A stretch of DNA of 64,000 bases, from the NCBI RefSeq assembly GCF_015206995.1, contig NZ_JADEXR010000001.1, positions 1 to 64,000 on the forward strand, read 5' to 3'. The position numbers and the translations under genes were made by a program. This stretch comes from an aff. Roholtiella sp. LEGE 12411 (GTDB lineage: Bacteria > Cyanobacteriota > Cyanobacteriia > Cyanobacteriales > Nostocaceae). Position 1 is the first letter of the stretch. Every line of letters starts with the position of its first letter. The notes under the pieces were generated by a model. It was not told where the DNA came from. It did not search any database and was given only the letters and a program-made list of their open reading frames with translations. Of the stretch, positions 29,143 to 49,730 are shown piece by piece.

Positions 29143-32100
29143 TTAAATGTACTCTTGTAATTGCTGGGCGAGTGTTGTATTGCAGGGGGGAAGCATGATG
29201 CTAAAATGGTTGCCATCTAAGATTTGTGTGTGAGTTGCGTTGATAGTATATTGACTCCAGTTGGTATGAGGTAATTTAGGTGTGAGTTGTTGTGCAGCCC
29301 ACCAGATGGAGATTTGAGCTTGGATTTGAGGTGGTTGATAGTTTTTTAAGAGTTTTTGGTGAATTTCGGTTAGTTCTAGCTGTTTTTGCAATATTTCAAT
29401 TGATACTTCTGATAATTCTTTTGAAAGTAAATTTTGTGATTGTCCCCAATTCATGATTAATTGCAGACGTTCAACAGAAGTTAAACTTATGAGTTGCTCT
29501 CGTAGTTGCTGTTGTTGAACAGTATCTAGCGTCATCAAAGCATCAACAAAAGTACCACCAAATACTAATGCTAATTCATATAAAGGATCGGGTGTAAAAG
29601 TTGGTGTACTATCTGGAAATAAGAACGCATCTACAAGTCCAAGAAAATCAACTTTACATCCTTGGTGTTCTAATTCTTTGGTAACACTAACAGCAATGAC
29701 TCCACCCATAGACCAACCCATGAGATGATAAGCACCATGAGGTTGATGTTGGCGAATGATTTTGGCGTATTCCACAGCCATATTTTCAATGCTATTATGC
29801 TCATCCAGTGAGTTGTTGAGAGCGCCAGACTGGAGAGCGTATACAGGTTGATCTGTTCCTAAACAGGTGGCAAGATGTTGATACACCATTACTTGTCCCC
29901 CTGTGGGATGAATACAGAATAATGGTGGTTGAGTTCCCTGTGGTTGAATGGGGACTAAAGATATAGGTGTTGGGGAAGCGTGATGATTTTGGATAAGAAA
30001 ATTTCCTAATTCGGCTACCGTTGGATAGTGAAAAAGTGTACTGAGAGGTATATTTGTGTGAAATTTATGATTGATTTTTGAGATTAATTGTAGTGCTAAA
30101 AATGAGTGTCCACCTAATGCAAAGAAGTTGTCATAAATGCTGATTTGCTGAAGTTGAAATAATTCCATCCAATTTGTAATTAATAGTTCTTCTACTTGGT
30201 TACGAGGCGGGGTAAAAGTTTGTGTTAATTCTGGTTGCGTACCTTCAGGAATAGGTAGCGCCTGACGATCCACTTTACCATTTGCTGTGAGCGAGAAAGA
30301 TGCTAACAACACAAAAGTAGAGGGAATCATGTATGCTGGTAATTTGGTTTGGAGAAAAGAACGTATTTCTTGAGTGGTGATGTTTGACTCTGGTTGTGAA
30401 ACAATGTAAGCTACTAATTGTTGTATCTCTTTGACTTTTGTAACTACAACTTCTTTAACGGTGGGATGCTGTTTTAATGTGGCTTCAATTTCACCGAGTT
30501 CAATGCGATAACCATTGATTTTGACTTGAAAATCTTCTCTTCCTAAAAATTCAATATTGCCGTCAGGTAAATAGCGTCCCAAGTCGCCTGTTTTATATAA
30601 TTTTTCTTTGGTAACTGGATGAGTAATGAAACTAGCCTTTGTCTTTTCTTCGTCTTGCCAATAACCTTTTGCTAATCCGATACCGCCAATATATAATTCT
30701 CCTGTCACCCAAACAGGACATTTTTTGAGAGATGTATTTAAAACATAAATATATTGATTTTTAAGTGGTTTGCCGTAGGGAATACTTTTCCAGTTAGGAT
30801 CAACTTGGGTAATTGGATAATAAATTGACCAGATGGCGGCTTCCGTTGCTCCTCCTAAACTAATGATTTCGGCTTGTGGAGATAATGCTTCTATCTGAGT
30901 GGGTAAATTTAGGGGTATCCAATCACCACTCAATAAAATTAACCTAATAGTATTAAATACAACTTGGGCATTAGTGAAGTTATACTCAATTAACATCTGC
31001 ATGAAAGCGGGAACTGAGTTCCAAATTGTGATTTGGTGTTTGGTAATTAATTCACTCCAATGAGATGGATCTTTACTGTTTGCAGCATCAGGAATGACTA
31101 TTGTTCCTCCTGCTGCTAAGATGCCGAAGATGTCGTAAACTGAGAGGTCAAAGCTGAGAGCAGAAATAGCTAAGATGCGATCGCCTGAATCGATCCGAAA
31201 GCGTTCGTTAATGTCTAAAATCGTGTTGACTGCACTTTCATGAGTAATCATCACACCTTTGGGTGTTCCTGTAGAACCAGAGGTGTAGATGATATAGGCT
31301 AAGTCTGTGGGTTTTGGGATTTGCTGCAATGGCTGGTGAGACGGTGAAATTTGTAATGAATGTATACACAAAATTGAGATGTTCTCTGGATATTCCAGAC
31401 TATGAACAAGGCAAGTTTCAGTCAGTACCAGTTTGACTTGTGCCTGTTGTAAACAATACCATATACGTTCCTTTGGTAATCTTGGATCGATGGGGACATA
31501 GATCCCACCAGCAGCAAGGATAGCTAAAGCGGCGACAATCTGTTTCCAACCTTTTTCCATAATGATAGCGATCGCCACCTGAGAGCGATCGCCTAGTTGT
31601 CGTGCTAATTCAGTGACGCGATCGCTTAACTCTTGATAGGTGAGAATGCGATCGCTGCTAATGATGGCTTGTTGTTGTGGACGTTGAGATACTTGTTTAA
31701 AAAACAAAGTGTGGAGTAAAGCTGTTTGCGGGATTGGTGTATGAGGATGATGAATTTGGGCTGCTGGTAATAATTCTATGGGTACTGTCCACAATTCATC
31801 TTCCTGGGCTAAACGCTCCAGCAAATTGCAGTAAACTGTAAACATTTCATCCAACATCCCCATAGGGAAAAGTGCTTCTACTGCATCCCAGTTAAAAATT
31901 AAGCTTCCATTGTGTTCTGCAACTTGATGTTCTAAGGAAACTTGCGGGGTTTGGCTAATACCATACACCACCTCTCCTAAAAAGTTATATTCTAAATCTG
32001 TCTGAGAAAAATTACCCAAACCTAACACACTACTAAATACTATAGGCATAGCTGCGGTCAATTCTGTTTGCTTTTGATTGAGCAATTTCCGCAATACTTC

Positions 32101-33300
32101 TACTCCACTAATATAAATATGGTCTAAATCTTGGAGTAATTGTTGTTGTATTTTTAGAGCTAGATTTGTAAATGTATTTGGAGATGAATTGTCTATTGCT
32201 AAGAGATTTGTATTGGTAAAATCTCCAATAATTTGATTGATCTGAGGATGAAGGGGTAGACGTTCCAGGACAGTTAAATTGAGAGTGAAGTGAGGATTTT
32301 TACTCCACAAAGTTAAAATTTCTGCAAAAGCGGTTAGCAAGATGATAGAAGGAGTTAAACCAGCTTTTTGACCTCGCTGTTTTAATTTTTGCCATATATG
32401 GGGTTCTAGTTTTCCAGCATAGCGTTTGAATGTATACTCTTTTAATTCACTAGGAAAACAAGCTAGGGGTAGTTCCGGTGCTGGTGGTAAAGTCTCTAGA
32501 CGATTGAACCAATAGGTTTGCGATCGCTTGACTAATTCTGAGTCTTGGAGAGAATTTTTGGCGATGACGTAATCTCGAAATGATAGTTCTAATGGTAGTA
32601 ATGATAATTCGAGATTGTGATAAAGTTGATTCCATTCGTGAAATAAAATCCGAATACTCGCAGCATCTATCAGTAATAAATCCATGCTTAGATGCAGCCG
32701 AATTTGTTGTTGATTTAAATAAGTAGCTCGAATATCAAACCAAGGCCATTGGTGTGAAGGTAAGTTTTGTTGAGATAATTTTTCGCGGATTGCTATTAAT
32801 TCAGTTTCGATTTTTGAGGTTTCTGATTCTTGTAAATCTAAGATGGTAATTTGATAATCGGGAACTTTATCTAAGATTTGTTGCTCTCCTGTGGGTAATA
32901 CGATCGCTCGTAGCATATCATGACGTTCAATGAGTTTTTGCCAAGCTGCTGTCAGGCGGGATATGTCTAATTTATTAGTTTCAAATTCTATGTAAACATG
33001 GTTGCTGACATGGCTTAATTCAAATACTTGATTGCGTCCTAACCAATGTGCTTGTTGGATGTCTGTGAGTGTAAATGGTTGGTGACGTTGCTGAGGATTT
33101 GGTTTGATGATTGGTAAGGAGGTTGTTTTTGTATTGCTGAGATTTAGGAGTTTAATAATTTCTGGTTTATGTTCTTTGAGGGAATCGCGTAGTTCTGGTG
33201 TTAATGTTCCTTTTGGTGCTTCGATGTTTAATAGGTCATTTTCTAACCAGAGTTTGATTCCTCGTTTTTCGAGTTCGATTAAAAGTTGGTTTTTGTTCAT
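29143..33300 (-). CDS. NRPS: Cy-A(Cys)-PCP-TE, terminal module
   Basis: 1385 aa from the ATG at 33300; 20 further upstream codons are open. Domains: TubC-like N-terminal docking domain (MNKNQLLIELEKRGIKLWLE, residues 1-45); heterocyclisation domain with DxxxxDxxS as DLLLIDAAS instead of HHxxxDG; adenylation domain whose pocket reads D-L-Y-N-L-S-L-I-W (FDLSVYDIFG, NSVPAFM, LLSGDW, SLGGATEAAIW), the cysteine code; carrier protein GGHSFLAL; thioesterase with GWSMGG. It adds a second cysteine, cyclises it to a thiazoline, and releases by hydrolysis or cyclisation. It lacks the Ox domain of the preceding NRPS. Last gene of the operon. Confidence 0.93.
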   Translation of the reverse strand: MNKNQLLIELEKRGIKLWLENDLLNIEAPKGTLTPELRDSLKEHKPEIIKLLNLSNTKTTSLPIIKPNPQQRHQPFTLTDIQQAHWLGRNQVFELSHVSNHVYIEFETNKLDISRLTAAWQKLIERHDMLRAIVLPTGEQQILDKVPDYQITILDLQESETSKIETELIAIREKLSQQNLPSHQWPWFDIRATYLNQQQIRLHLSMDLLLIDAASIRILFHEWNQLYHNLELSLLPLELSFRDYVIAKNSLQDSELVKRSQTYWFNRLETLPPAPELPLACFPSELKEYTFKRYAGKLEPHIWQKLKQRGQKAGLTPSIILLTAFAEILTLWSKNPHFTLNLTVLERLPLHPQINQIIGDFTNTNLLAIDNSSPNTFTNLALKIQQQLLQDLDHIYISGVEVLRKLLNQKQTELTAAMPIVFSSVLGLGNFSQTDLEYNFLGEVVYGISQTPQVSLEHQVAEHNGSLIFNWDAVEALFPMGMLDEMFTVYCNLLERLAQEDELWTVPIELLPAAQIHHPHTPIPQTALLHTLFFKQVSQRPQQQAIISSDRILTYQELSDRVTELARQLGDRSQVAIAIIMEKGWKQIVAALAILAAGGIYVPIDPRLPKERIWYCLQQAQVKLVLTETCLVHSLEYPENISILCIHSLQISPSHQPLQQIPKPTDLAYIIYTSGSTGTPKGVMITHESAVNTILDINERFRIDSGDRILAISALSFDLSVYDIFGILAAGGTIVIPDAANSKDPSHWSELITKHQITIWNSVPAFMQMLIEYNFTNAQVVFNTIRLILLSGDWIPLNLPTQIEALSPQAEIISLGGATEAAIWSIYYPITQVDPNWKSIPYGKPLKNQYIYVLNTSLKKCPVWVTGELYIGGIGLAKGYWQDEEKTKASFITHPVTKEKLYKTGDLGRYLPDGNIEFLGREDFQVKINGYRIELGEIEATLKQHPTVKEVVVTKVKEIQQLVAYIVSQPESNITTQEIRSFLQTKLPAYMIPSTFVLLASFSLTANGKVDRQALPIPEGTQPELTQTFTPPRNQVEELLITNWMELFQLQQISIYDNFFALGGHSFLALQLISKINHKFHTNIPLSTLFHYPTVAELGNFLIQNHHASPTPISLVPIQPQGTQPPLFCIHPTGGQVMVYQHLATCLGTDQPVYALQSGALNNSLDEHNSIENMAVEYAKIIRQHQPHGAYHLMGWSMGGVIAVSVTKELEHQGCKVDFLGLVDAFLFPDSTPTFTPDPLYELALVFGGTFVDALMTLDTVQQQQLREQLISLTSVERLQLIMNWGQSQNLLSKELSEVSIEILQKQLELTEIHQKLLKNYQPPQIQAQISIWWAAQQLTPKLPHTNWSQYTINATHTQILDGNHFSIMLPPCNTTLAQQLQEYI

Positions 33301-33399
33301 TGTTTGCTTTGGTTGTTGGTGAGAATTATTTTTTATTAACGAACACGAATGAACACGCAATAATGCAAGGGATAAGATTTTTCGTCAGAATTTTGGTAT

Positions 33400-33455: not shown

Positions 33456-33523
33456 AGGGTTTAAACGTTAATCGATTTGTCTTATCCGAGTAGTATGGTA
33501 TTGGATGAACACGGATAATATAG

Positions 33524-36500
33524 TCAGATTTGGATTCTTTCTTTGTCGTCGTCTTGTTCTGTGGGTAAGGGTTTTTGTGTGATTTTAGCGATAATTAATT
33601 GCTCATCAATGGCTAATGCTAGTTCTTGAACATTTGTTGTTTCCACTAATAATTGACGCATGGGAATGTTGACTTGGAGTTGAGTTTGTAAGTGATTCTT
33701 CAACTGCACGAGTTTGAGCGAATCTATTCCTAATTCAAAGAAATTATTCTGTATTCCCACAGCTTCAATTTGCAGCAGTTGTTGGACAAATTCGGCGATT
33801 GTTTTTTCGGTTTCGGTTTGCGGAGGGACTAAAGTTGCTGATTTGGCTGTTGCGATATTGGGAATTGGTAAAGCTTTGCGATCTATTTTTCCGTTGGGGG
33901 TTAGGGGTAAGGTGTCAATGAGAATATATTCAGCAGGTATCATGTATTGTGGAAGTTGTTGCTGTAGATATTCTCGGAATTGGGTAGAATTTGATTTGGC
34001 AGTTTGAGGATTTTTAACTAATGACCATTGCTGAGAATCTGTTGGATCTATTTTTCCACCAACAAAGCTATAAAGGAGAACTTGATTTGCTTCTAATTTA
34101 AATAAATCTTGAATTTGGGGAAATTCTAAATAACCAAGGGGACAAAGACCAATTTCTTGGGTTGGTGCGCTGTTCATGAGTAATTGTCCGATGTGTCCTG
34201 CTTCCAAAAGACAGAAGTCTCTAGCGAGTTCTCCATACATCGGTGCGATCGCACTTAGTTTTCCAATCAAATATATCGCAAAAGCGGATTGTTCAAAAAG
34301 TGCTTGATTCTCAAGGTAAACACTACTATCTATTTCGTTGCTGCTGTGGAGTAAGATTAAATTGTGGTCGCTGGGATGATAATAATATATTCCTGCTGGA
34401 AGGGTTTCAATGCTGTTGGGTTTGATGAATAAGTAAGTTTGTACGGGGTAGAGACTCCCAGCAGAAGGATAGCGATATTTGGGGAGGGGATAATCACCCA
34501 GTTGTATTTGCTGGAGACAGTTGAGAAATTTGCTAAATTGCTTTAGGGATATCTGTTGCGGTAGAAATTGTCTGTAACTTTGGCGTTGGAGATAAGCTGT
34601 TTGCTCAAGTTCAGATTTGGGTAAGTGAATAGTAATTGGCGATGATTCCGATTTGCGGATTCCTGGTTGCTGGAGTTTAAATTCGATGCGTTCTCCAGGA
34701 TCGCTTAATACTCCTGCTTGTTGAGATGGTTGGTAAGCTTCTCCTAAATTGGGAGTTGGTGTAATGTGGCGTTCGCGTAGCGGCTGTTTCGCAGCATCGC
34801 TGACAATATAAGCAACTAATTGTTGTGTTTTTTCCACTGTTATAACTACTGCTTCTTTAACAGTGGGATGCTGTTTTAATATGGCTTCAATTTCACCAAG
34901 TTCAATGCGATAACCGTTGATTTTGACTTGAAAATCTTCTCTACCTAAAAATTCTATATTCCCATTGGGTAAATAACGTCCCAAGTCGCCTGTTTTATAT
35001 AATTTTTCTTTGGTAACTGGATGAGTAATAAAGCTAGCGTTTGTCTTTTCTTCGTCTTTCCAGTAACCTTTTGCTAAACCGACTCCGCCAATATATAGTT
35101 GTCCCGTCACCCAAACAGGAGTTTGCTGCAAATTGTGATTTAATACATATACTTGTTGATTATCGAGTGGTTTGCCGTAGGGAATACTTTTCCAGTTAGG
35201 ATCGACTTGGGTAATTGGATAATAAATTGACCAAATAGAAGCTTCTGTTGCTCCTCCCAAACTCACGACTTGGATATTTGACCACAATGTTTGGATTTGA
35301 TTTGGTAAATTTAGAGGTAGCCAATCTCCACTCAACAAAGCTAAACGTAGAGATGAAGGTTGTTGTGGTTGGTTGGTAAGATATTCTACCAACATTTGCA
35401 TCAAAGCTGGAACTGAGTTCCACAGGGTAATTTGCTGAGATACTATTAACTCTAACCAGTGTGCGGGATCTTTGGTTTTATCTGCTGAGGGAATAACTAT
35501 TGTTCCTCCCGCCGCTAACATACCGAAGATGTCGTAAACTGAGAGGTCGAAGTTTAATGCTGATAAAGCTAAGATGCGATCGCCTGATTTAATTCCAAAG
35601 CGTCGATTGATATCCAAAATGGTATTTACCGCACCCCGATGAGCGATCGCTACCCCTTTGGGTAAACCTGTAGAACCGGAAGTGTAGATGATGTAAGCTA
35701 AATCATCGGGAGTCTGGACTAGTTTGATATCTTTCCCATCTCCTCTGAGTTGACTTTCCACACATACTTGTTGAACACCTGATGGCAAAGATAGGTGAAG
35801 ATGAGGTTGAGTGACAATTAATTTAACTTGTCCTTGGGTGAGTAAATACCATTGTCGCTCTGCTGGTAATTCAGGATCGATGGGGAGATAAGCCGCGCCA
35901 GCGATTAAAATTCCTAGTACAGCAACAATTTGCTCCCAACCTTTTTCCATGACAACGGCGATCGCATTGTTGCTGGTTGCTCCCAATTCTCGCAGTTGAG
36001 ATGCCAATTGCAGAGCGCGTTGGTATAATTCCTGATAAGTTAGGGTACGCTCTGGGGTGATGACTGCTGGAGAATCAGCTTGGATTTGCACTTGCTTGAT
36101 AAACAGACTGTGCAAAGTTTCTTCAGAAATGGGTGCGGTGGGATAATTTGCAATTATAGGTTGTTGTAATTCTCGCTGAATCTTGCTCCAAATTGTATCT
36201 GAGGTAATTAGTCGCTGGAGCAAATCGCAGTAAGCAGCAAACATCTCATCCAGTAAACCTGGGGGGAAAAGTTCTTCCACCGCATCCCAGTTAAATATTA
36301 AAGTTCCGTTTTGCTCTCTGAGTTGATTATCTAACCAAACTTGCGGAGTTTGACTGATACTGTAAACGAGTTCGCCTAACTGACTTAATATTGATGTATC
36401 CTGACCAAGTGATTCTAAACCTAGTGTACTAGTAAATATCACTGGCATAAATTGGTAACTTTGACGTTGACGGCTAAGTTCTCGCTGTACCTGCAAACCA

Positions 36501-39500
36501 CTGATATAACCGTGATCTAAATCTTGCCACAGTTGTTGCTGTAATTGTTGAGCGTGGTTGCTAAAGCTTTGAGGAACTGAGCGATCGACTTCTAAAAGTG
36601 TCAAAGAGGTAAAGTCTCCCATAATCTCATTGACTTGGGGATGTAAAGGTAAACGTTTAAACAGTGTGAGATTAATCGTAAACTTAGGATTTCTGCTCCA
36701 TTGACTGAGGATTTCTGCAAAAGCAGCCAGTAAAACTCCAGAAGGAGTTAAGTTAAATTGTTGAGCGCGATTTTGTAATTTGCGCCATTGTTCTGGAGAC
36801 AGTTGAGAACTGCGACGTTGAAACCGAGGATTGGTAATGGAATTCGGATTTTTCGCTAGGGGTAATTCTGGTGCTGGTGGTAAGGTATCTAGTCGGTTAA
36901 ACCAATATTCTTGAGAACGTTGATATTGGGGTGTATTTTTTAAAGTTGATTCCCCAAGCACATAATCGCGGAAGGAAAGTTCTAAGGGTGGTAATACAAA
37001 CTCATAATTATTATATAGATGTAACCACTCCCGCATCAGCATAAACACACTCCAAGCATCAGCAATCAAAGCATCAAAACTGAGGTGGAGTCTGGTACGC
37101 TGTTCATCTATGGGTGTAGCTCGAATCCTAAATAAAGGCCATTGCTCCGCAGGTAAGACTTCATGGGACATCTGCTCGCGCATCACCTCTAAATCTTGCA
37201 AATCTAAAACTTCTATTTCATAAGCCGGTACTGTTGTCAGAATTTGCTGTTGACCATCTGGTAAAATAACAGCGCGGAGCATATCGTGACGCAAAATGAG
37301 TTTTTGCCAAGCTAGATTCAACCTTGTTAAATCTAGGCGATCGCAATCTAGTTCTAAATAACCATGAGCAGCAATATTCCCCAATTCAAAAGCTTCATTT
37401 CGTCCTAACCAATAAGCTTGTTGAATGTCGGTGAGGGGAAAAGGTTGATCGCGCTGTTGTGGATCTGGGACAATTGTTGGTAAATCAACTGAAGATTCTG
37501 TCTTTGTAAAAGATGTCAGTGCTTCACTCAATCCAGCCACGGTGGGAGATGCTAACAAAGAGCGTAACGGTAACTCAATATTTAAGGTTTGCTGTAATCG
37601 AGCAATAACTTGAGTCGCAAGTAGGGAATGTCCCCCCAATTCAAAAAAGTTATCGTGAATCCCTACTTGTTTGAGTCCCAAAACAGCAGCGATAATATTA
37701 GCGATCGCTTCTTCCGTTGCTGTGCGCGGTGGAACAAAGTCTATTTCTCGATTCTGTTCTATATCTGGAATTGGTAAAGCACGCCGATCTACTTTCCCGT
37801 TGGGTGTTAAAGGTAAAGTTTCCAGAATGGCGATCGCACTTGGAATCATATAATCAGGTAACTTCTGTTTGAGAAAGTTACGCAATTCACTAGTTGTTAA
37901 TGATTGCTGTCCAGAAACAATATATGCAACTATAGATTTATTGTCGGTTTGCAGTTCTCGAACCATCACCACTGCTGCTTGTACTTGGGGATGACTACTC
38001 AAAACAGCTTCAATTTCCCCTAGTTCAATTCGGAAACCCCGAATCTTCACTTGATCGTCAATTCGACCGAGTAATTCAATATTACCATCAGGAAGATAAC
38101 GCGCTAAATCTCCCGTTTTGTACAAAATCGGGTTTTGGGGAGAATAGGAGATAAATTTCTCTTTGGTTAAATCAGGACGATTTAAATAACCTTGAGCTAC
38201 ACCCACACCACCAATATATAATTCACCCGCAACCCCAATGGGAACTAATTGTAAATATTGATCTAAAATATAAACTTGCGTGTTCGCAAATGGACGACCA
38301 ATAGGAACCAACCCACTTCCTAATTTCCCAATCCCCAACTCAAAATAGGTGCTATCAATACACGCTTCCGTTACCCCATAGGAATTAATCAAACGTGTCT
38401 GCTCGCCACAAAAACGCTGAAATTCTTGATATTCTTGGATATACAAGCTATCTGAACCGACTACCAACAATTTCATAAAGTGGAGATTTTGCTGAGTTCT
38501 TTGCAAATACTCAACCAAGTTTCTCAACAGAGCTGGAACAAACTCCGCGCTATCAATTTTCTCCACCAACATCAGTTTATACAGCTTGTCCGGTTCTAAT
38601 AGCCACTCACGCGGACATAAAACCAACTTAGCACCACTACAAAGAGCGCGAATGACATCCCCTGAAAACACATCAAAAGCAAAACTCGCCATTTGCAAAT
38701 GACTAGTCAAAGACTGGAGTTGATAAGCTTTTTCCCAACCATGAAACGCATTTACTAAACTGCGATGAGCGATCGCTACTCCTTTAGATTTACCTGTAGA
38801 ACCTGATGTGTAAATCACGTAGGCTAAATCTTGAGATGCAGTATTATTTACTAAATTCTCTTCACTTTCCTGAGAAATATCTTCCCAATCTCGATCTAAA
38901 CAAACTACAGCTAAATCCTCTATTGCTAAACTCGCTACTAATCTTTGTTGAGTCAGCAATATCGATACTTGGGAATCACGCAGCATAAAATTCAAACGTT
39001 CTTCGGGATACGCAGGATCTAAAGGTAGATAAGCTCCACCTGCTTTCAGAACTCCCAATAATGCAATAATCATTTCTAGGGAACGTTCCACACAAATTCC
39101 CACCAGCTGATTTTTACCTATTCCCAAGGAACGCAGGTAGCGTGCTAGTTGATTCGCTTTGCTGTTTAATTGTTGATAGGTTAATTGTAAAGACGTTTCA
39201 TTAAACGTCTTTACATTTGGAAATACCACCGCAACAGCGTTTGGTTGCTGGTTCACACAGTTCTCAAACAACTGATGAATGACTCGATTTTGGGGATAAT
39301 CAACTTGGTTGTTGTTCCACTTCCACAACAAATTATTTGCTTCAGCTTCCGTTAGCAGAGGTAAGGAAGCAATTTGCTCTTGGGGATTAGCAATAATCCC
39401 TGGGAGTAAAGTTTGAAAATGACTCGCTATCCTGGTAATTGTCGTAGCATCAAATAAATCGGTGTTGTATCTGAAGATACCAATTAATGATTCAGTCGTC

Positions 39501-40873
39501 TCGATCATATCGAAAACTAAATCATTCTGTCCTTCCTGCTGGGGAATCACAAAAGGTTCGAGAGTTAACCCACCCCAATCTTCTCTAATTTTAGTTTGAT
39601 TAGATACAGATAATTCATAATCTTTCGCAATTTCACTTACCTTAAACAAATTAAAGGAAACGCGAAAAAGACCAGGAAGACTTGGATCGCGGTTGAGTTG
39701 CGATCGCTCAATTAGTAAAGTAGAGGGATAATCTTGATGAGCGATCGCATCCAATACAGTTTGGCGGACTTGAGTTAAAAGCTCAGAAAATGTGGGATTA
39801 CCAGCCAGATTTACCCGCAAAGCCAGCATATTCACGAAAAAGCCCACAGTTTCGGCAAATTCCGGCTGACTTCTCCCCTCAATAGGCGCACCCACAATTA
39901 TATCTTCCTGACCTGACAAGCGGTAAAGCAACACTTGAAAGGCGGTTAACAAAGTCATATAAAGGGTTGCTCCTTGAGCTTTCGCCATTTCTCGTAGCTG
40001 AGAAGTCAACTCTTGATTCAACTCAAAAGTATGGGAAGCTCCCCGATAGCTTTGAATTGGTGGTCGCGATCGATCTGTTGGTAATTTTAAGATGGGTAAC
40101 TCACCCGCTAATTGTTCGCGCCAGTAATTCCATAGTTCATCGCCCACAGAACTTGCTAAAGTATTTCTCTGCCACTGTACAAAGTCTTGATATTGGTACT
40201 TAATAGCAGGTAAAGATATGACTCTACCTGTATTTTCCGCTTCGTAGAGCGATCGCAACTCATCAAGAATGATTCCCAGGGAAAAACCATCAATAACAAT
40301 GTGATGTATTGTTAGTAATATTACATAATTATCTTCAGAACAAGTAAATAAGTTTACCCGCAATAAATTACCCTTTTCCAAATTAAAGGGACGCTGATAT
40401 GCTGCTATGACTTGGCTTGTCAACTCATCTTCATTCCCAGATGAAGCGTCAATATTTTCAAAATCAACTTCTTGGTATTCATGAACCTGTTGAAAAGGTT
40501 CGCCATCTTTTTGTGCAAATGTTGTGCGGAGAGTAGGATGACGATTTACTAACTTCTGAAACGCTTGTTGTAAAGCCGCAATATTTAAATGGGAGCAGAT
40601 ACGAGCGGTAAAAGCCACATTATAAGCTGCACTAGTGGGTGCAAGTTTATACAAAAACCATAGACCTTGCTGACCGTGAGTCAGGGGATAGGATTTAGAG
40701 GTGTGAAAACCTTGGCGCAGCAAATCGATAATTTCTGTTTTATGCTGCTTAATTTGATTTAAAACTGTGGAAGTTAATACTTCTTTACGACCACGATAAC
40801 GCAGTTTACTATCTTCAACCCACAATTCTATATTCTGTTGCGAGAGTTGTGTGAGAAACTCAACTAAATTCAT
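33524..40873 (-). CDS. NRPS: C-A(Orn/Lys-like)-PCP-Cy-A(Cys)-Ox-PCP
   Basis: 2449 aa from the ATG at 40873 (RBS GGAGGGAGAA), overlapping the ACP stop (ATGA). Domains: TubC docking (1-50); condensation with HHIVIDGFS; A1 with pocket D-V-G-E-V-G-S-I-D (FAFDVFSGDV, AEFVPALL, VVGSD, NSYGVTEACID), matching the known ornithine code DVGEIGSIDK except one residue; PCP GGHSLLAT; Cy with DALIADAWS; A2 with the exact Cys code D-L-Y-N-L-S-L-I-W; a nitroreductase/SagB-like FMN oxidase (RYPSAGSLYPVQTYLF) inserted before the A10 end; PCP GIDSLKL. It should acylate a diamino acid, then build a thiazole from Cys. Confidence 0.93.
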   Translation of the reverse strand: MNLVEFLTQLSQQNIELWVEDSKLRYRGRKEVLTSTVLNQIKQHKTEIIDLLRQGFHTSKSYPLTHGQQGLWFLYKLAPTSAAYNVAFTARICSHLNIAALQQAFQKLVNRHPTLRTTFAQKDGEPFQQVHEYQEVDFENIDASSGNEDELTSQVIAAYQRPFNLEKGNLLRVNLFTCSEDNYVILLTIHHIVIDGFSLGIILDELRSLYEAENTGRVISLPAIKYQYQDFVQWQRNTLASSVGDELWNYWREQLAGELPILKLPTDRSRPPIQSYRGASHTFELNQELTSQLREMAKAQGATLYMTLLTAFQVLLYRLSGQEDIIVGAPIEGRSQPEFAETVGFFVNMLALRVNLAGNPTFSELLTQVRQTVLDAIAHQDYPSTLLIERSQLNRDPSLPGLFRVSFNLFKVSEIAKDYELSVSNQTKIREDWGGLTLEPFVIPQQEGQNDLVFDMIETTESLIGIFRYNTDLFDATTITRIASHFQTLLPGIIANPQEQIASLPLLTEAEANNLLWKWNNNQVDYPQNRVIHQLFENCVNQQPNAVAVVFPNVKTFNETSLQLTYQQLNSKANQLARYLRSLGIGKNQLVGICVERSLEMIIALLGVLKAGGAYLPLDPAYPEERLNFMLRDSQVSILLTQQRLVASLAIEDLAVVCLDRDWEDISQESEENLVNNTASQDLAYVIYTSGSTGKSKGVAIAHRSLVNAFHGWEKAYQLQSLTSHLQMASFAFDVFSGDVIRALCSGAKLVLCPREWLLEPDKLYKLMLVEKIDSAEFVPALLRNLVEYLQRTQQNLHFMKLLVVGSDSLYIQEYQEFQRFCGEQTRLINSYGVTEACIDSTYFELGIGKLGSGLVPIGRPFANTQVYILDQYLQLVPIGVAGELYIGGVGVAQGYLNRPDLTKEKFISYSPQNPILYKTGDLARYLPDGNIELLGRIDDQVKIRGFRIELGEIEAVLSSHPQVQAAVVMVRELQTDNKSIVAYIVSGQQSLTTSELRNFLKQKLPDYMIPSAIAILETLPLTPNGKVDRRALPIPDIEQNREIDFVPPRTATEEAIANIIAAVLGLKQVGIHDNFFELGGHSLLATQVIARLQQTLNIELPLRSLLASPTVAGLSEALTSFTKTESSVDLPTIVPDPQQRDQPFPLTDIQQAYWLGRNEAFELGNIAAHGYLELDCDRLDLTRLNLAWQKLILRHDMLRAVILPDGQQQILTTVPAYEIEVLDLQDLEVMREQMSHEVLPAEQWPLFRIRATPIDEQRTRLHLSFDALIADAWSVFMLMREWLHLYNNYEFVLPPLELSFRDYVLGESTLKNTPQYQRSQEYWFNRLDTLPPAPELPLAKNPNSITNPRFQRRSSQLSPEQWRKLQNRAQQFNLTPSGVLLAAFAEILSQWSRNPKFTINLTLFKRLPLHPQVNEIMGDFTSLTLLEVDRSVPQSFSNHAQQLQQQLWQDLDHGYISGLQVQRELSRQRQSYQFMPVIFTSTLGLESLGQDTSILSQLGELVYSISQTPQVWLDNQLREQNGTLIFNWDAVEELFPPGLLDEMFAAYCDLLQRLITSDTIWSKIQRELQQPIIANYPTAPISEETLHSLFIKQVQIQADSPAVITPERTLTYQELYQRALQLASQLRELGATSNNAIAVVMEKGWEQIVAVLGILIAGAAYLPIDPELPAERQWYLLTQGQVKLIVTQPHLHLSLPSGVQQVCVESQLRGDGKDIKLVQTPDDLAYIIYTSGSTGLPKGVAIAHRGAVNTILDINRRFGIKSGDRILALSALNFDLSVYDIFGMLAAGGTIVIPSADKTKDPAHWLELIVSQQITLWNSVPALMQMLVEYLTNQPQQPSSLRLALLSGDWLPLNLPNQIQTLWSNIQVVSLGGATEASIWSIYYPITQVDPNWKSIPYGKPLDNQQVYVLNHNLQQTPVWVTGQLYIGGVGLAKGYWKDEEKTNASFITHPVTKEKLYKTGDLGRYLPNGNIEFLGREDFQVKINGYRIELGEIEAILKQHPTVKEAVVITVEKTQQLVAYIVSDAAKQPLRERHITPTPNLGEAYQPSQQAGVLSDPGERIEFKLQQPGIRKSESSPITIHLPKSELEQTAYLQRQSYRQFLPQQISLKQFSKFLNCLQQIQLGDYPLPKYRYPSAGSLYPVQTYLFIKPNSIETLPAGIYYYHPSDHNLILLHSSNEIDSSVYLENQALFEQSAFAIYLIGKLSAIAPMYGELARDFCLLEAGHIGQLLMNSAPTQEIGLCPLGYLEFPQIQDLFKLEANQVLLYSFVGGKIDPTDSQQWSLVKNPQTAKSNSTQFREYLQQQLPQYMIPAEYILIDTLPLTPNGKIDRKALPIPNIATAKSATLVPPQTETEKTIAEFVQQLLQIEAVGIQNNFFELGIDSLKLVQLKNHLQTQLQVNIPMRQLLVETTNVQELALAIDEQLIIAKITQKPLPTEQDDDKERIQI

Positions 40874-41163
40874 AATTCTCCCTCCAACCACTCATCATCA
40901 TTTTCTATTTTTGATTCAGCATTTTCACTTAAATCATTGACTAATATTGCTAAACTTACAACATTAGTATCCTCTAGAAATTTTACTGCTGGAATATCTA
41001 CTTCCAAGTCTTTTCTAAACTTATTTCTGAGCTTGACAGCAATTAATGAATCAAGCCCTAAATAATTTAAAGACATTTTAACATCTAATTGAGATGTGTT
41101 GATCCCAATTACTTTAGCTATTTCGTCTTGAATATAAGTTGTAAAAAAGGCTATTGTAGACAT
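40870..41163 (-). CDS. Acyl carrier protein (ScoB-like)
   Basis: 97 aa. Single carrier domain with the phosphopantetheine serine in LGLDSLIAVKL and preceding helix ITYIQDEIAKVIG-type sequence (FFTTYIQDEIAKVIGI). An acidic C-terminal tail ends in the ATGA overlap with the NRPS start. In the isonitrile lipopeptide pathway a stand-alone ACP (ScoB, Rv0100) carries the acyl chain activated by the ligase and presents it for modification and to the NRPS condensation domain. The translational coupling to the NRPS here fits that role. Confidence 0.88.
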   Translation of the reverse strand: MSTIAFFTTYIQDEIAKVIGINTSQLDVKMSLNYLGLDSLIAVKLRNKFRKDLEVDIPAVKFLEDTNVVSLAILVNDLSENAESKIENDDEWLEGEL

Positions 41164-41220: not shown

Positions 41221-41406
41221 TAGCAATCCTAAATCATTTGTGAAAATAACATATCTCTTTCTTCTTTCTTCTTTCTTCTTTCTTACCTTTGCGTCCTTCT
41301 CTAACGAGACGCTGCGCGAATGCGTCCTTCTCCCAGGGGGAGACGCTACGCGATTGCGGTTCGTTTCCTTATCTATATTTTTCACGATTCATTTAGGACT
41401 GCAATA
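41221..41406. mobile_element. MITE-like element inside the isonitrile/NRPS operon
   Basis: Imperfect terminal repeats TAGCAATCCTAAATCATTTG / (complement) AATGATTTAGGACTGCAATA-type arms at 41221-41246 and 41379-41406 enclose CTTTCTT microsatellite and ACGAGACGCTGCGCG-type palindromic text with no ORF. It fills most of the 437-base gap between the ACP and the thioesterase genes; the remainder to 41600 has no gene. Confidence 0.65.
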
Positions 41407-41600
41407 TTCAATACAGTTCACAAAAGGGCTGAAACTCTTTTTTTTACAAACCACAGAGGCGCAGATAACACAGAGAGAAGAGAAAGATGAAATGCTTAAC
41501 CCAAGTGTATTGTGCTATATTCAATGTGGCGATCGTAACTTCATCTTCAGACCAACCACCATTATCATCAAAGGCACAAAATAGATTAATTCGAGTTAAC

Positions 41601-42158
41601 CTATACCGGAGAATTTACAATAACTAATTTCACATTACCACTGCAATTACCATCTTGCTCATCCCAATAACGACATTTAGTAACTATATACATCATCCCA
41701 GATTTGATCCGAATATTAGTAAACTCAATCTCACCCCAAAATTTAGAAGACCGCATAGCACGTCGAAAGGAACTTTCAAAATTCACAATATAGACATCCG
41801 GTAGCTGTTTATTCCAATAATCTGCCATAGTCCACGACTGAAATGATGCCATCAGTCTTTCTTTCACGGATTTAGCTATGACATAATACATCATTTGGTT
41901 GTAGCAAATATTGAACTCCACTGAATTAAAATGACCAGTATCATCGATATAACATGATTCTGGAATCGAGAATTCACATCGTCCGATTACACGTCCCCCA
42001 TGCTGAGGATCGCCCTCTTTAGTTATTTCAGCAGATTTAAGATACTGACAATGAGCTTTATAAGGCTTGAGTACTTGTGCCAATAAGATATCATCATTAT
42101 TGATGTGGATACTATTTTGGTTGACGCTTTTTTGGCTTGAATCCTGAAACTTCAACAT
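41601..42158 (-). CDS. FcoT-type thioesterase (ScoD/Rv0098-like)
   Basis: 185 aa. Pattern matches the FcoT family: VLKPYKAHCQYLKSAE, SCYIDDTGHFNSVEFNICYNQMMYY, SFQSWTMADYW, and a C-terminal CRYWDEQDGNCSGNVKL. Rv0098, the founding member, has equivalent PY-C-YL, GHFN-VE-CFNQ and WDENGG-SG blocks. In isonitrile lipopeptide biosynthesis the ScoD homologue promotes addition of glycine to the alpha,beta-unsaturated acyl-ACP and releases the N-carboxymethyl beta-amino acid. It sits next to the ScoE-like oxygenase, as in the actinobacterial clusters. This small family is rare, so its presence strongly supports the pathway call. Confidence 0.88.
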   Translation of the reverse strand: MLKFQDSSQKSVNQNSIHINNDDILLAQVLKPYKAHCQYLKSAEITKEGDPQHGGRVIGRCEFSIPESCYIDDTGHFNSVEFNICYNQMMYYVIAKSVKERLMASFQSWTMADYWNKQLPDVYIVNFESSFRRAMRSSKFWGEIEFTNIRIKSGMMYIVTKCRYWDEQDGNCSGNVKLVIVNSPV

Positions 42159-42248
42159 GATATTTTGTCCTGATTAAATGACTGAATAAGGCAAATGATT
42201 TTTTACTTTTTGTTGAGATGTTTTAAACACAGTGAGAATACAATTGCT

Positions 42249-43127
42249 CTATAACTGATAAAATGGATAGCTATCGTGTAAGGTCAATCGAAATGTGACC
42301 GCTGGTTCCGAATTTGCAGCATAGTGAGCGCAATGAACTAGAGAGCGATTATCCCAAATCCGCACATCTCCTAATTCAAATTCATGGTGTTCGATTAATG
42401 GATATTTAAAACTTTTGTCTAACTGACCGGAATGAGTCAACAACCTTTGGAGAACATTTATATCTTGCGGTTTTCCCTCTGAATCATCTATGCGATAAGT
42501 AAACCCCTCGGTAATGTAGAGGACGGTTTCTCCTGTAATGGGATGAATAAAGGTCGTTGGATGCTTTGCGGGAGGAGTGACTCGTTCAATTTCGTCTAAT
42601 ATTTCCGAAATCGGACGATAAACATCTTCAGGACGAATTTTAAAAAAACGTCTGACACTGTGATAACAACTCGACTCATTGGCAACGGATTTCAGGTCAT
42701 CTGGTAAACTTTGATATACTTTGGACATATTAATAAAGTAAGTGCCACGCTCCTTAGTAGGAAGGATCTGAGGATATACCATTGAAAATGCAAATGGCCT
42801 CGGCATAAACGCATAATCGGCGTGCCAAAATTTCCCAGTCTTCGGAACTCCAACTTGCTGACCATTCTCAGAAACATTGGAGGAAACAAAAATATCTTCC
42901 CTTTCTGGATGGTGATACATCGGCTGATAGTATTTTTCTACCTCCCCAAGACGATACCCAAAACCGCAATATTCATGAGGTGATAAATCTTGATCCTTGA
43001 TTACCACAATTTTGTATTCATATATCAGTTGCTTAAGATCCTCAATATTTTGATCTGAAGCAATTTTATGATTAAAATCATAAACGACGACTCCCATTCG
43101 CTGATTGTCTTGATATTGAACTTTCAT
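42249..43127 (-). CDS. Fe(II)/2-oxoglutarate oxygenase, isonitrile-forming (ScoE/Rv0097-like)
   Basis: 292 aa TauD-family enzyme. The HxD motif is FWHADYAF, the distal histidine is in WDNRSLVHCA, and the 2OG-binding arginine is in TFRLTLHD. Beyond the fold it shares ScoE-type segments: GKFWHADYAFMPRPF, RGTYFINMSKVYQSLPDDL, YHSVRRFFKIRPEDVYRPISEI and HPITGETVLYITEGFT. ScoE oxidatively decarboxylates the N-carboxymethyl beta-amino acid to an isonitrile. This reaction differs from the IsnA/IsnB route known for cyanobacterial hapalindole isonitriles. Taurine or sulfonate oxidation is a less likely alternative given the neighbours. Confidence 0.88.
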   Translation of the reverse strand: MKVQYQDNQRMGVVVYDFNHKIASDQNIEDLKQLIYEYKIVVIKDQDLSPHEYCGFGYRLGEVEKYYQPMYHHPEREDIFVSSNVSENGQQVGVPKTGKFWHADYAFMPRPFAFSMVYPQILPTKERGTYFINMSKVYQSLPDDLKSVANESSCYHSVRRFFKIRPEDVYRPISEILDEIERVTPPAKHPTTFIHPITGETVLYITEGFTYRIDDSEGKPQDINVLQRLLTHSGQLDKSFKYPLIEHHEFELGDVRIWDNRSLVHCAHYAANSEPAVTFRLTLHDSYPFYQL

Positions 43128-43167
43128 ATTTTTCTCACTCGCTACAAGTAACGTAAAATTATTGAAA

Positions 43168-43229
43168 TTAAGTTCGTAGTAAGGACTTTAGTCCTTTCTT
43201 GAGGACTGAAGTCCTCACTACGAACTTAA
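43168..43229. repeat. Palindromic repeat AAGTTCGTAGT...ACTACGAACTT
   Basis: Outer arms TTAAGTTCGTAGT / ACTACGAACTTAA are perfect over 13 bp, and inside them AAGGACTTTAGTCCT and AGGACTGAAGTCCT are further small palindromes. Lies between the oxygenase and exporter genes of the operon. Dispersed-repeat type; may shape the transcript as a hairpin. Confidence 0.75.
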
Positions 43230-43253
43230 AATAATATGTTGTTGGTAGCATAG

Positions 43254-44510
43254 TTAACTAATCTTACGTACTGATGGATTTGCTGCCAAAGAAAGACTTG
43301 TAATTAGCATGATGCTACCCGCAACAGTAAACATAATTGTCAGATTTAAATTAACTAAGAAACCAGCTAAAGCAAAGGAAACAGGAGCAACACCAAAAGC
43401 AGAAAACATTCCTAAACTCATAACTCTTCCTAACATTTCAGGTTGAGTTTGTTTCTGAATCCAAGTAATTCCTACCACAGTGAAAATACAACTGCAAAAT
43501 CCCAGCACTGCAATTGTTATACTAGCTAGTGCTATATTGCCAATAAAGCCAAGTAAAAATAAACCAAAGCCTTGAACACTCGCAATAGTTAACAATAAAA
43601 CTCCGATGTTGGGAAGATTTTTGACAAATTGAGGTGTGAGTGTCCCAATTAACCCACCACCACCCCAAGCTGATTGCAATATTCCTAAAGCTACTACACC
43701 ACCTGGGAAGCGACTATGAGCTAGTGAAGTCATCCCAACTTGTAATGGCCCAATAAATAGAAAATTTAGGATTACCATTACCAGCAAAAAGATTCTCAGA
43801 GGCTGATTGTCCCATGCGTAGTAAAATCCCTCACGCATACCAGCAATCAAATTCATAGTTTTTTTAGTTGAAGCAGAATTTTGATTTAATTCCCCATGCA
43901 ATACTGTTGCTTTTGCTGTTGTTCCCTTCATCAGCAAAAGCGTGATAGTTGTGATAGCGAAAGTTATCCCATCAATGACAAATGCTACCTCAATACCAGC
44001 AGTTGCAATGAGCAAACCAGCTAAAGCCGGCCCAATCAGCAAAATCAGTTGGGAAGTTCCTTGGCTTAAAGTATTACTTGCTATTAACTGTTCTTTTGAT
44101 ACCAGACTGGGGATAATTGATTTAGATGCAGGTATAAAAAAGCCATCAAATATGCCGAAGCTCGCAGCAAAAAAGTAAATATGCCATAGTTGAGTCATTT
44201 TCAACGCAACGATGGTTGCAAATAAAACGACTAGTAACCCACGTAAAGCATTGGAAACCAACATCACTAATCGTGGTGAAAAGCGATCGCTCACCACACC
44301 ACCAAACAGCATCAAAACAGCACGGGGAATCGCTGCACTCATTAACACAGTACCTAGCGTGATACCAGAGTTAGTTAACTGTATTGTTAACCAAGGCAAT
44401 GCAACGATATAAAATTGATCTCCTAGAAGCGAAACAGTCTCACCAATGTACAGAAGTAAGAAGTTGCGTACAGTTAGCGGTTTCCAAAGAGGAACTTTAG
44501 AATTGATCAT
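43254..44510 (-). CDS. MFS exporter (EntS/MFS_3-like), putative metallophore exporter
   Basis: 418 aa, twelve membrane helices. The N-terminal GETVSLLGDQFYIVALPWL and the RFSPRLVMLVSNALRG loop are typical of the EntS-like MFS_3 family that secretes enterobactin and macrolides. A central basic loop separates two six-helix halves. Encoded between the oxygenase and the ligase in the biosynthetic operon, so export of the operon's product is inferred. The 92-base gap to the ligase carries repeat-like text (CTCTGCGTTTAAA) but no gene. Confidence 0.88.
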   Translation of the reverse strand: MINSKVPLWKPLTVRNFLLLYIGETVSLLGDQFYIVALPWLTIQLTNSGITLGTVLMSAAIPRAVLMLFGGVVSDRFSPRLVMLVSNALRGLLVVLFATIVALKMTQLWHIYFFAASFGIFDGFFIPASKSIIPSLVSKEQLIASNTLSQGTSQLILLIGPALAGLLIATAGIEVAFVIDGITFAITTITLLLMKGTTAKATVLHGELNQNSASTKKTMNLIAGMREGFYYAWDNQPLRIFLLVMVILNFLFIGPLQVGMTSLAHSRFPGGVVALGILQSAWGGGGLIGTLTPQFVKNLPNIGVLLLTIASVQGFGLFLLGFIGNIALASITIAVLGFCSCIFTVVGITWIQKQTQPEMLGRVMSLGMFSAFGVAPVSFALAGFLVNLNLTIMFTVAGSIMLITSLSLAANPSVRKIS

Positions 44511-44602
44511 TGGTCATTTCTTCCTCTGCTTTGCGCTCCTGTGCGTAAACCTCAGCGTGACTCTGCGTTTAAAAATAAACCCGAACATTTGGGATGCTCC
44601 CT

Positions 44603-46186
44603 TTAATTCACACGACGTTCATACCCTTGCCAATATTTCTCCCGAATCTTGGCCTTTTGCAATTTCCCACTAGGCGTTCTTGGCAAAGATTCAGTAAACT
44701 CAACGCTTCTAGGTAACTTAAAATCAGCAATTTTACCCCGAACAAAATTAATAATATCTAGTGCGGTTGCTTTCATTCCTGTTTTTAAAACCACGATCGC
44801 TTTGATTGCTTCTCCAAAATCTTCATCTGGAACACCAATGACTGCTACTTCCCTAATTGCTGGATGTTCATATAAGATATTTTCAATTTCTGCTGGATAG
44901 ACATTTTCACCACCATAAACAATCATGTCTTTAAAGCGATCGCAAATGTAAATGTAACCTTCTTCGTCAAAATAACCAGCATCACCAGTATGAATCCAGC
45001 CATCTATTAAGGTTTTTGCTGTAGCTTCAGGTAATTTCCAATAACCAATCATATTTGCAGGAGATTTGATACAAACTTCACCCACTTGAGCGCAAGATAG
45101 TTCTTTCCCTTCACTGTTGATGATGGCTACCGATACACCAGGAAAGGGTTTACCCGCAGCTTTAAGTATGTTTTTATTTGTAGATGTATGAGCTGGTGCA
45201 GGTAAAGAGACAGCACAATTGCCAGTTTCCGTCATTCCATATATCTGCACAAAATTACAACCAAATGTGGCGATCGCACTTTTGAGTGATGATTCAGCTA
45301 TGGGGGAACCCCCATAAATAATGTATTCTAGTGATGAAAAATCTGTTTTTTGGCATAATGGTTCGTTCAACAGAACTTGAATCATTGCTGGAACCATAAA
45401 TGTCTTGGTGATGCGGTACTTTTCAATCGCTTCAAGAACCTCAACGCCGATAAAATTTTCTAAGACAATATTTTCTGCTCCTGATGCTAAACCACGAATA
45501 GCCCACCAGAGACTCCCGATATGGAATAAAGATAAGGTAAGCAAACTTTTGTCAGTTTCGTTCCAATTTATCCAGGTTTCGCCTCGTTGAGCAAATTCTT
45601 TGGCGATCGCAAAAAAACTGTAATGTCCTAGTTGGACACCTTTAGGTCTTCCAGTAGTGCCACTAGTATACATTTGTACAGCTACATCATTGGCTTCAAC
45701 CGCAACATTTGGTGGATCATGACTATGTTCCTGAGACCAAATATCGTAACTCAGGCAATTGCCGTCAATTTCTTCTAAGGCAATAATGGTTTTAACACCA
45801 TCAATCTCATTTCTAATCGATTCTACTAACTGATAAAATTCCGCCCCAACAAAAAGAATTTCAACATTAGCATCCCTAAGGATATAACTGATTTCAGCAG
45901 CAGCTAAACGCCAATTAATCGGTACAAAAACAAATTTTATTTTGCAACAAGCAAATAAAATTTCATAAGTTTTAAGTGAATCTTTAGCTAAAAATGCTAC
46001 TCGCGCACCTGGTTTAATTCCTTGGGCTAATAGTGAATTTGCGACCTGATTACTTCTTTGATCTAATTGTATATAGGTAAGTGACTTATCCTTGAATATC
46101 AATGCCCTAGCGTCTGGAATTTGACGTGCTTGCACACGCGGTAAATCTGCCAACGTTGTTATTTCACTGTTATACATCATCGACAT
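44603..46186 (-). CDS. Acyl-CoA/ACP ligase (ScoC/FadD10-like)
   Basis: 527 aa ANL-superfamily enzyme. Motifs: AMP-binding P-loop VQMYTSGTTGRPKGV, IYGMTETG, GWIHTGDAGYFDEEGY, and the C-terminal lysine in LPRTPSGKLQK. It activates a carboxylic acid as acyl-AMP. In the isonitrile lipopeptide pathway ScoC loads first the unsaturated fatty acid, then the finished isonitrile acid, onto ScoB. It is the first gene of the minus-strand operon that ends at 29143. The ATG at 46186 is followed closely by two other in-frame ATGs. Confidence 0.88.
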   Translation of the reverse strand: MSMMYNSEITTLADLPRVQARQIPDARALIFKDKSLTYIQLDQRSNQVANSLLAQGIKPGARVAFLAKDSLKTYEILFACCKIKFVFVPINWRLAAAEISYILRDANVEILFVGAEFYQLVESIRNEIDGVKTIIALEEIDGNCLSYDIWSQEHSHDPPNVAVEANDVAVQMYTSGTTGRPKGVQLGHYSFFAIAKEFAQRGETWINWNETDKSLLTLSLFHIGSLWWAIRGLASGAENIVLENFIGVEVLEAIEKYRITKTFMVPAMIQVLLNEPLCQKTDFSSLEYIIYGGSPIAESSLKSAIATFGCNFVQIYGMTETGNCAVSLPAPAHTSTNKNILKAAGKPFPGVSVAIINSEGKELSCAQVGEVCIKSPANMIGYWKLPEATAKTLIDGWIHTGDAGYFDEEGYIYICDRFKDMIVYGGENVYPAEIENILYEHPAIREVAVIGVPDEDFGEAIKAIVVLKTGMKATALDIINFVRGKIADFKLPRSVEFTESLPRTPSGKLQKAKIREKYWQGYERRVN

Positions 46187-49706: not shown

Positions 49707-49730
49707 TTTAATTGTTGTAGCGATGGAAAA

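Follow-up and report, generated by a model that had tools for sequence, protein, structure and literature searches.

A conserved ScoE-type gene cluster in Nostocales, predicted to make an isonitrile thiazole-thiazoline metallophore

This report deals with a 64,000-nucleotide stretch of DNA, called the window throughout, from the cyanobacterium aff. Roholtiella sp. LEGE 12411 (contig NZ_JADEXR010000001.1, positions 1 to 64,000), and with a gene cluster on its minus strand that joins the enzymes of isonitrile lipopeptide synthesis to nonribosomal peptide synthetases (NRPSs) with heterocyclisation domains. Read in the order of transcription, from 46186 to 29143, the genes encode a fatty-acyl AMP ligase, a major facilitator superfamily (MFS) protein, a ScoE-family oxygenase, an FcoT-family thioesterase, an acyl carrier protein (ACP), NRPS-1 and NRPS-2. 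Judged from its genes, the conserved cluster probably makes an isonitrile-fatty-acyl ornithinyl-thiazole-thiazoline carboxylic acid, a metallophore that would be secreted and re-imported, with copper as the likely metal. All five functions of the actinobacterial isonitrile lipopeptide clusters (ligase, ACP, ScoD, ScoE and NRPS) are co-located here, and the single-strand set of ligase, MFS, oxygenase, thioesterase, ACP and NRPSs described in an earlier note on this DNA was borne out by domain and family-model scans. The bounds given in that note held for the operon, but a divergent TonB receptor gene and a second MFS gene (47175-51051) had been overlooked.

The warhead enzymes are known; the assembly line, the transport setting and the phylum are new. 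ScoE-type isonitrile peptides have been described as an actinobacterial class, and the same warhead enzymes are now seen in phototrophs that evolve oxygen and have an outer membrane, where they are linked to siderophore heterocycle chemistry and a TonB receptor. Cyanobacteria need copper for plastocyanin and cytochrome oxidase, and the reading, if true, would offer a testable route to a high-affinity cyanobacterial copper uptake system and would show one reactive group mixed with different assembly lines in evolution.

The warhead enzymes

The central enzyme is a ScoE-family Fe(II)/alpha-ketoglutarate (alpha-KG) oxygenase/decarboxylase encoded at 42249..43127, the predicted isonitrile synthase. 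A comparison with ScoE/Rv0097 and with the taurine dioxygenase TauD, by models and phylogeny, had been proposed beforehand, and it came out on the side of ScoE. The protein scores 434.7 bits on the ScoE equivalog NF049937 (cut-off 400) against 101.9 on the TauD model, and among solved chains it matches Streptomyces coeruleorubidus ScoE (6dch) with 375.9 bits and E. coli TauD with 79.4. A tree of 58 rows was built from 43 homologues (from 120 listed of 701 found), the loci described below, three solved ScoE-type proteins and TauD. The window's protein falls in an 18-row clade (support 99/99) made up of all seven named cyanobacterial loci and environmental sequences; this clade and 38 further rows (56 in total) are split from TauD and G382, a relative from the family sample, with support of 84/80 at an open fork, in a tree where 16 of 54 inner branches are well supported, the bootstrap is unsettled, and 9p9p, G382 and TauD sit on long branches. 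The identity of the oxygenase as TauD was thus ruled out by the equivalog score, the solved-chain scores and the tree placement, with TauD far outside.

The active site is likewise conserved, with 13 of 14 checked residues kept, among them the 2-His-1-Asp iron triad (at residue numbers that we assume to be the right ones), Tyr96, Tyr101, Lys193, Arg195 and Arg310. The 14 residues comprise 11 taken from PMC7949033 (cited, like all papers here, from excerpts of its text) and the three iron ligands.

The thioesterase at 41601..42158 scores 211.1 bits on PF10862, where the gathering score is 27. Against solved proteins it reaches 197 bits with 5wsy, which we take to be SAV606, and 82 bits with Rv0098. 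Enzymes of the CmiS1/SAV606 type add glycine onto an enoyl thioester and then hydrolyse it, and the type serves isonitrile pathways (PMC11284099); the same glycine-adding role is predicted for the window's protein. The ScoC-like ligase at 44603..46186 (PF00501/PF13193; PRK06187 577 bits, cut-off 476), for which FadD10 was among the 25 distinct PDB sequences matching at E 1e-60, is the predicted loader of the enoic and/or the isonitrile fatty acid onto the ACP. The latter is a stand-alone, ScoB-like protein of 97 amino acids at 40870..41163 (PF00550, 47.4 bits), and its stop codon overlaps the start codon of NRPS-1 at 40873.

The assembly line

NRPS-1 (33524..40873, from its first ATG at 40873) has the order TubC_N-C-A(Orn code)-PCP-Cy-A(Cys code)-Ox-PCP, and NRPS-2 (29143..33300, the first ATG of its open reading frame being at 33300) the order TubC_N-Cy-A(Cys code)-PCP-TE, where C stands for condensation, A for adenylation, PCP for peptidyl carrier protein, Cy for heterocyclisation, Ox for oxidase and TE for thioesterase. 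The three modules, two Cy domains and one thioesterase that the earlier note had read were upheld by domain scans and motifs, and what it had missed was the Ox domain, predicted to form a thiazole. The first condensation domain (39326..40696, PF00668) is an ordinary C domain with HHIVIDG at 40286-40306, which ruled out the candidate in which all three are Cy; the other two carry DxxxxDxxS. Cy2 (36194..37468), recognised by this motif, has Cy domains as its best matches in the PDB (EpoB 390 bits, Irp2 351, bacillamide Cy 319); no ordinary C domain scores above 60.1 bits. The PDB comparison covered Cy2, and the assignment of the third domain (31801..33075) comes from its motif (DLLLIDAAS at 32656-32682) and PF00668. 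The Ox domain (34064..34588, PF00881 57.6 bits) has a nitroreductase fold and is a predicted thiazoline-to-thiazole oxidase, with the BmdC oxidase as its best match (121.9 bits); one thiazole and one thiazoline are therefore predicted.

The adenylation domains at 37967..39181 (TIGR01733), 35060..36097 and 30658..31704 (both by domain match) carry the codes DVGEVGSID(K), DLYNLSLIW(K) and DLYNLSLIW(K), which read Orn-Cys-Cys, with nine positions read and the tenth (Lys517) assumed. DVGEIGSIDK is an ornithine code (PMC3992020), and DVGEIGSID itself is present in two of the close relatives (G397 and G470), while DLYNLSLIWK is among the cysteine codes with an Ox-modified product (PMC12283262). The ornithine-type code of module 1 is what a diisonitrile core would need. 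The TE domain (29146..29928, PF00975 105 bits, GWSMG motif) is predicted to release the product by hydrolysis.

The gene anatomy fits the reaction order of isonitrile lipopeptides, after which would come ornithine, the thiazole, the thiazoline and, at the end, hydrolysis. The ligase would put a 2-enoic fatty acid onto the ACP, the ScoD-like thioesterase would add glycine to the enoyl thioester, and ScoE would turn the adduct into a 3-isonitrile fatty acid by oxidation and decarboxylation, presumably at the cost of two alpha-KG and two O2 per isonitrile as in the S. coeruleorubidus enzyme (PMC7949033). After the ligase had reloaded this acid onto the ACP, the first C domain could acylate ornithine, perhaps on both amines as in the actinobacterial diisonitriles; Cy2, A2 and Ox would add a cysteine and form the thiazole, Cy3 and A3 would add the second cysteine as a thiazoline, and the TE would free the acid. 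The MFS protein encoded at 43254 would then export the product, and the TonB receptor and the second MFS protein would retrieve its metal complex. The hybrid of isonitrile lipopeptide and pyochelin/yersiniabactin-like chemistry suggested earlier finds support in the ScoE/FcoT membership and the Cy modules, and would be amended by the Ox domain, the ornithine code and the TonB and MFS genes.

Relatives of the cluster

In the named genome collection, a scan by pattern turned up nine loci encoding a relative among 38 matched stretches. Six of the nine (L001-L006) are from Nostocales and carry the window's cluster as far as their stretches reach; the first, G457, is Komarekiella delphini-convector, marked as congeneric with the window's genome. 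The seventh, in a Symploca metagenome-assembled genome (MAG), has a synthetase of the order A-PCP-Cy-A-Ox-PCP-TE in the part covered, and there the NRPS precedes the ligase. A Symploca gyrB gene with an intein-type insert (L007 12683-17236) adjoins that cluster. The last two, in a gammaproteobacterial MAG (L008) and in Streptomyces sp. JH14 (L009), encode a KS-AT-DH-ER-KR-ACP polyketide synthase (PKS) next to ScoE and ScoD. PKS lines, too, may be served by the warhead pair, a point of possible relevance to fatty-acid-type isonitriles such as the mirabilenes.

At the level of whole genomes, ScoE matches (E 1e-60) were found in 2 of 386 genomes drawn from the phylum, 9 of 388 drawn from the order and 19 of 217 in the family; these samples overlap, all the tallies include the window's own genome, and L001-L006 lie within the 19. 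One sequence of the order sample (G731:C179:48798-49670) matches ScoE at the level of the window's closest relatives and has one internal TGA, which could be a sequencing error or the mark of a decaying gene. In all 19 family clusters the order ScoE, ScoD, ACP, NRPS is kept and a ligase is present. The ornithine code DVGE[VI]GSID is found in 16 of them and DAEDIGTVV or DTEDIGTVV, which we take to be a lysine-like code, in the other three; in G408 the Orn/Lys-type code sits in the second module. Since 19 of 217 genomes of the family have a related core, in several architectures, the window holds one member of a family.

The 19 clusters fall into two classes by their ScoE, and across both the number of heterocyclising modules is either none or two. 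Class A (10 of 217 family genomes, window included) has a ScoE over the cut-off and a cluster of the window's type. The full set of C, A, Cy, A, Ox, Cy, A and TE was matched in seven of the nine class A relatives, contig ends cutting the remaining two (G504 and G423). In one of the seven, L034 (G444), an interruption of about 1.4 kb separates Cy3 from A3 in NRPS-2. Class B (9 of 217) has a ScoE of 264 to 290 bits, under the cut-off of 400; that of G382 is 36.6% identical to the window's. Pro97 and Gln195 are found in all nine class B enzymes, and nine of the 14 checked residues are invariant. As the substitution of Arg195 left ScoE with no product (PMC7949033), isonitrile formation is less certain for class B.

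The class B synthetases are of the form C-A-TE in four of nine (G422 with the TE at 31% identity, G382 confirmed by Pfam) and C-A-C-A with a TE downstream in two, the TE match of G547 being weak and several kb away. The other three are one each of C-A-Cy-A-Ox-Cy-A-TE, of C-A-C-A-Cy-A-Ox-Cy-A-TE and of the three-module form without a TE; in the fitted alignment, two of the class B adenylation codes have a gap at position 278. Eight of the nine class B stretches gave a match to the MFS exporter.

A mosaic was seen in G528 (L047, L050), where class B ScoE and ScoD genes stand with a class A-like ACP and NRPSs. Its ACP/NRPS region is 90 to 91% identical in nucleotides to the window over 11 kb, and identity is 73 to 77% for the TonB, second MFS, ligase and MFS genes that flank it; the ligase lies downstream of the NRPS, an arrangement shared with class B, and NRPS-2 has no TE and ends with the PCP. 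The mosaic shows that the warhead genes form a unit separable from the assembly line, and suggests that a single kind of synthetase can work with either ScoE class.

Transport, metal and rival explanations

Beyond the ligase gene lies a divergent intergenic region (46187..47174), followed on the plus strand by the gene for an AMIN-TonB-dependent siderophore-type receptor (47175..49706; TIGR01783 232.6 bits, cut-off 223.5) and that for an AmpG/RhtX-FptX-like MFS permease (49843..51051). The receptor is the predicted importer of the metal complex and the permease the predicted inner-membrane importer, with the MFS protein inside the operon (43254..44510; PF07690/PF05977; EntS model 126 bits, under its cut-off of 324) as the predicted product exporter. 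Both divergent genes are kept in all ten class A clusters, window included, and in L001-L006 the receptor is 65 to 94% identical to the window's. The intergenic region holds four TGTCAA sites where 0.6 would be expected from a first-order model, a count reached in 2 of 500 simulations. These repeats are conserved in an alignment of seven loci, the window among them, and some relatives have an inverted TTGTCAA-N6-TTGACAA. Placed between the ligase and TonB genes, they are a possible operator of an unnamed metal regulator; naming a regulator from them was not possible.

Several points weigh against the metallophore reading. The analysis establishes the genes, their domain order and adenylation codes, the ScoE-family membership, the conservation and the purifying selection; all the chemical steps, the number of isonitriles, the chain length, the metal and the direction of transport are predicted from these. 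TIGR01783 names siderophores in general, and the second MFS protein is under the cut-offs of both permease models (TIGR00901 221.5 bits, cut-off 350; TIGR02718 193.2, cut-off 356.15). Neither a TonB receptor nor an ACP was matched in the Symploca stretch that was read, and release would run through the TE without the reductase end of the actinobacterial synthetases. The thioesterase scores 221.4 bits on the ScoD equivalog NF049938, under the cut-off of 250, and was therefore filed as FcoT family and ScoD-like in role only; of the FcoT/ScoD identity once proposed for it, the family membership stood and the equivalog assignment did not.

The metal is the weakest link. Copper was chosen for the strong Cu(I) binding of such diisonitriles and their part in copper uptake, the published ones being Cu(I) binders and chalkophores (PMC9600254). 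It is conceivable, if rather doubtful, that the cluster makes a metallophore for iron or zinc and not a chalkophore, a reading that overlaps the preferred one, where copper is only likely. It would suit a receptor that fits the general TonB-siderophore model, and among the lusichelins, cyanobacterial thiazoline/thiazole compounds that chelate iron and copper, lusichelin C bound iron consistently (PMC12210259). One group, as told in PMC9600254, takes the mycobacterial diisonitrile to act on zinc instead of copper, a view that weighs against copper here as well. Synthetic diisonitriles of this type, however, bound Cu(I) but showed no strong binding of Zn (PMC9600254), and another cyanobacterial metallophore, fatuamide A, prefers copper (PMC11877528). 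A search of the seven intergenic regions for one Zur box pattern found no match, and a Fur box was judged there by eye only; the former result tells against zinc and also against the preferred reading.

The same isonitrile-thiazoline compound could instead be a defence or signalling agent with a toxic isonitrile, transported mainly by export, and the TonB receptor would then take up some other ligand. Published cyanobacterial isonitriles have antifungal or cytotoxic activity (PMC10300848). A TonB receptor was clear in four of the nine class B stretches, weak in one (G547, a 23% match) and unseen in four, which favours this explanation and counts against a metallophore. However, the receptor and the second MFS gene stay with the cluster throughout class A, and a thiazole-thiazoline acid would be a chelator, so that a role in defence is unlikely.

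The most specific objection comes from the oxygenase itself. His299 of S. coeruleorubidus ScoE, part of its alpha-KG site and outside the definition of the family model, is replaced by Tyr269 in the window and by Tyr in all ten class A enzymes, and the nine class B enzymes have Leu, Ile, Thr or Ser there; in the S. coeruleorubidus enzyme the change H299Q abolished both product and succinate (PMC7949033). The oxygenase might then make no isonitrile and carry out another oxidation, for example a single hydroxylation, so that the NRPS would start from a 3-amino or 3-(carboxymethylamino) fatty acid; related ScoD-type thioesterases do also feed beta-amino starter units (PMC11284099). We consider this quite improbable, as the other 13 checked residues are kept, the ScoE score is over the cut-off and the gene is under purifying selection in class A (median dN/dS, the ratio of non-synonymous to synonymous substitution rates, 0.142; maximum 0.267; 45 pairs). 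Such selection means that the Tyr form was kept as a working gene and says nothing on its product. The enzyme from Symploca and several environmental relatives in the same clade keep His, and Tyr could still hold alpha-KG. Among the 15 closest database proteins checked, taken from the matches listed, 12 have His at this position, two have Tyr and one is too short; as one of the Tyr proteins (P0006) is placed elsewhere in the clade, the change came about within a clade that is normal in other respects, and may have done so repeatedly. If the prediction holds, the natural variants with Tyr, Ser, Thr, Leu or Ile at 299 would be test material for the published model of the alpha-ketoglutarate site.

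A wider proposal, for and against which the case seems to us evenly balanced, is that the Nostocales hold a combinatorial family of isonitrile metallophores. One cassette (ligase, ScoD, ScoE and ACP) would work with interchangeable NRPSs that end at Orn/Lys, add an aromatic residue or add a thiazole-thiazoline, with ScoE/ScoD swapped between clusters. The window's member would be a diisonitrile-ornithinyl-thiazole-thiazoline chalkophore taken up by its own TonB receptor, with a ScoE that holds alpha-ketoglutarate differently (Tyr for His299).

Other genes in the window

Downstream of NRPS-2, an antiporter (27722-29053) and a P450 (26238-27704) were considered as cluster members and rejected, as they were unmatched in the 0.7 to 2.3 kb that seven relatives provide past NRPS-2, stretches that cover the P450 in part. 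Further out, 5.5 kb from the cluster, 22930-23622 encodes an HpiC1-like protein of the hapalindole cyclase family (PF22825, 144.6 bits); it is beyond the reach of those stretches, which do not address its link with the cluster. Within the operon, an open reading frame at 41240-41584 was judged spurious, and a PADLOC scan of it led nowhere. Scans of the window for tRNAs and Rfam families gave no matches.

Elsewhere, an APH/choline-kinase-like gene is followed by a HopA1-family gene (PF17914, 208 bits) at 7162-9547, a pairing that may correspond to the kinase-lyase pair in class V lanthipeptide synthetases. At 15719-20755 there is an HlyD-type fusion protein with an ABC exporter that has a C39 peptidase and a cyclic-nucleotide (cNMP)-binding domain, of the kind that exports peptides carrying a leader. 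The beta-carotene ketolase CrtO is encoded at 53102-54796 (NF045689 1118.5 bits, cut-off 1000) and a divergent phosphoketolase-like protein at 57909-60122 (PF03894 54.7 bits).

Comparison with known systems

The earlier note knew of no described cyanobacterial counterpart, and the open-licence PMC literature agrees as far as titles and abstract openings go: among the matches listed there was no cyanobacterial ScoE-type pathway and no isonitrile-thiazole peptide, in a search with subscription journals mostly outside it and antiSMASH-type databases not covered. The cyanobacterial isonitriles that the note named are those of the hapalindole route, and others have to be added to them. That route, IsnA/IsnB, also gives cyanobacterial isonitriles, but by an unrelated enzyme; the IsnA family PF05141 had no match in the window's genome, and the control genomes were silent too, so that this is no proof of absence. 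To our knowledge the mirabilenes of Scytonema mirabile have neither a peptide nor a thiazole part. They are non-indole cyanobacterial isonitriles, classed in print as fatty-acid derivatives (PMC10300848). A 2026 survey that mined genomes for peptide metallophores uses none of the words isonitrile, isocyanide, chalkophore and copper in its excerpted main text (PMC12971057), and clusters of this kind may therefore escape its chelator rules.

Single parts of the cluster have parallels in other pathways. Those of the CmiS1/SAV606 type, such as that of cremimycin, share a related glycine-adding, dual-function thioesterase (5wsy, 197 bits), but there a FAD enzyme leads to a beta-amino acid for a macrolactam PKS (PMC11284099), whereas in the window ScoE would follow and an NRPS would receive the acid. 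The lusichelins share Cy and Ox domains, cysteine codes, a TE, and MFS and TonB genes, but are built from a salicylate starter with PKS modules (PMC12210259), where the window's cluster has a predicted isonitrile fatty acid starter and no PKS. Pyochelin and yersiniabactin likewise start from salicylate, and no salicylate or isochorismate enzyme was found among the cluster proteins scanned, within the matches listed for the NRPSs and the ligase.

The closest likenesses are actinobacterial. The mycobacterial nrp cluster (rv0097 to rv0101) has the same five functions, with a dimodular Nrp, and we know of no TonB receptor in it; its locus includes ppe1, which was not among the window's cluster proteins scanned. 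It makes diisonitrile chalkophores for copper acquisition (PMC9600254), and the excerpts of that paper mention neither heterocycles nor a TE, unlike what is read in the window. The ScoA-E system of S. coeruleorubidus shares with the window a ligase, an ACP, an FcoT/ScoD thioesterase, a ScoE and an NRPS in one cluster. ScoA activates a diamino acid, and the synthetase ends in a reductase. Unlike that system, the window has three modules with two Cy domains, one Ox domain and a TE, a TonB receptor, a cyanobacterial host, and a Tyr at position 299 of ScoE.

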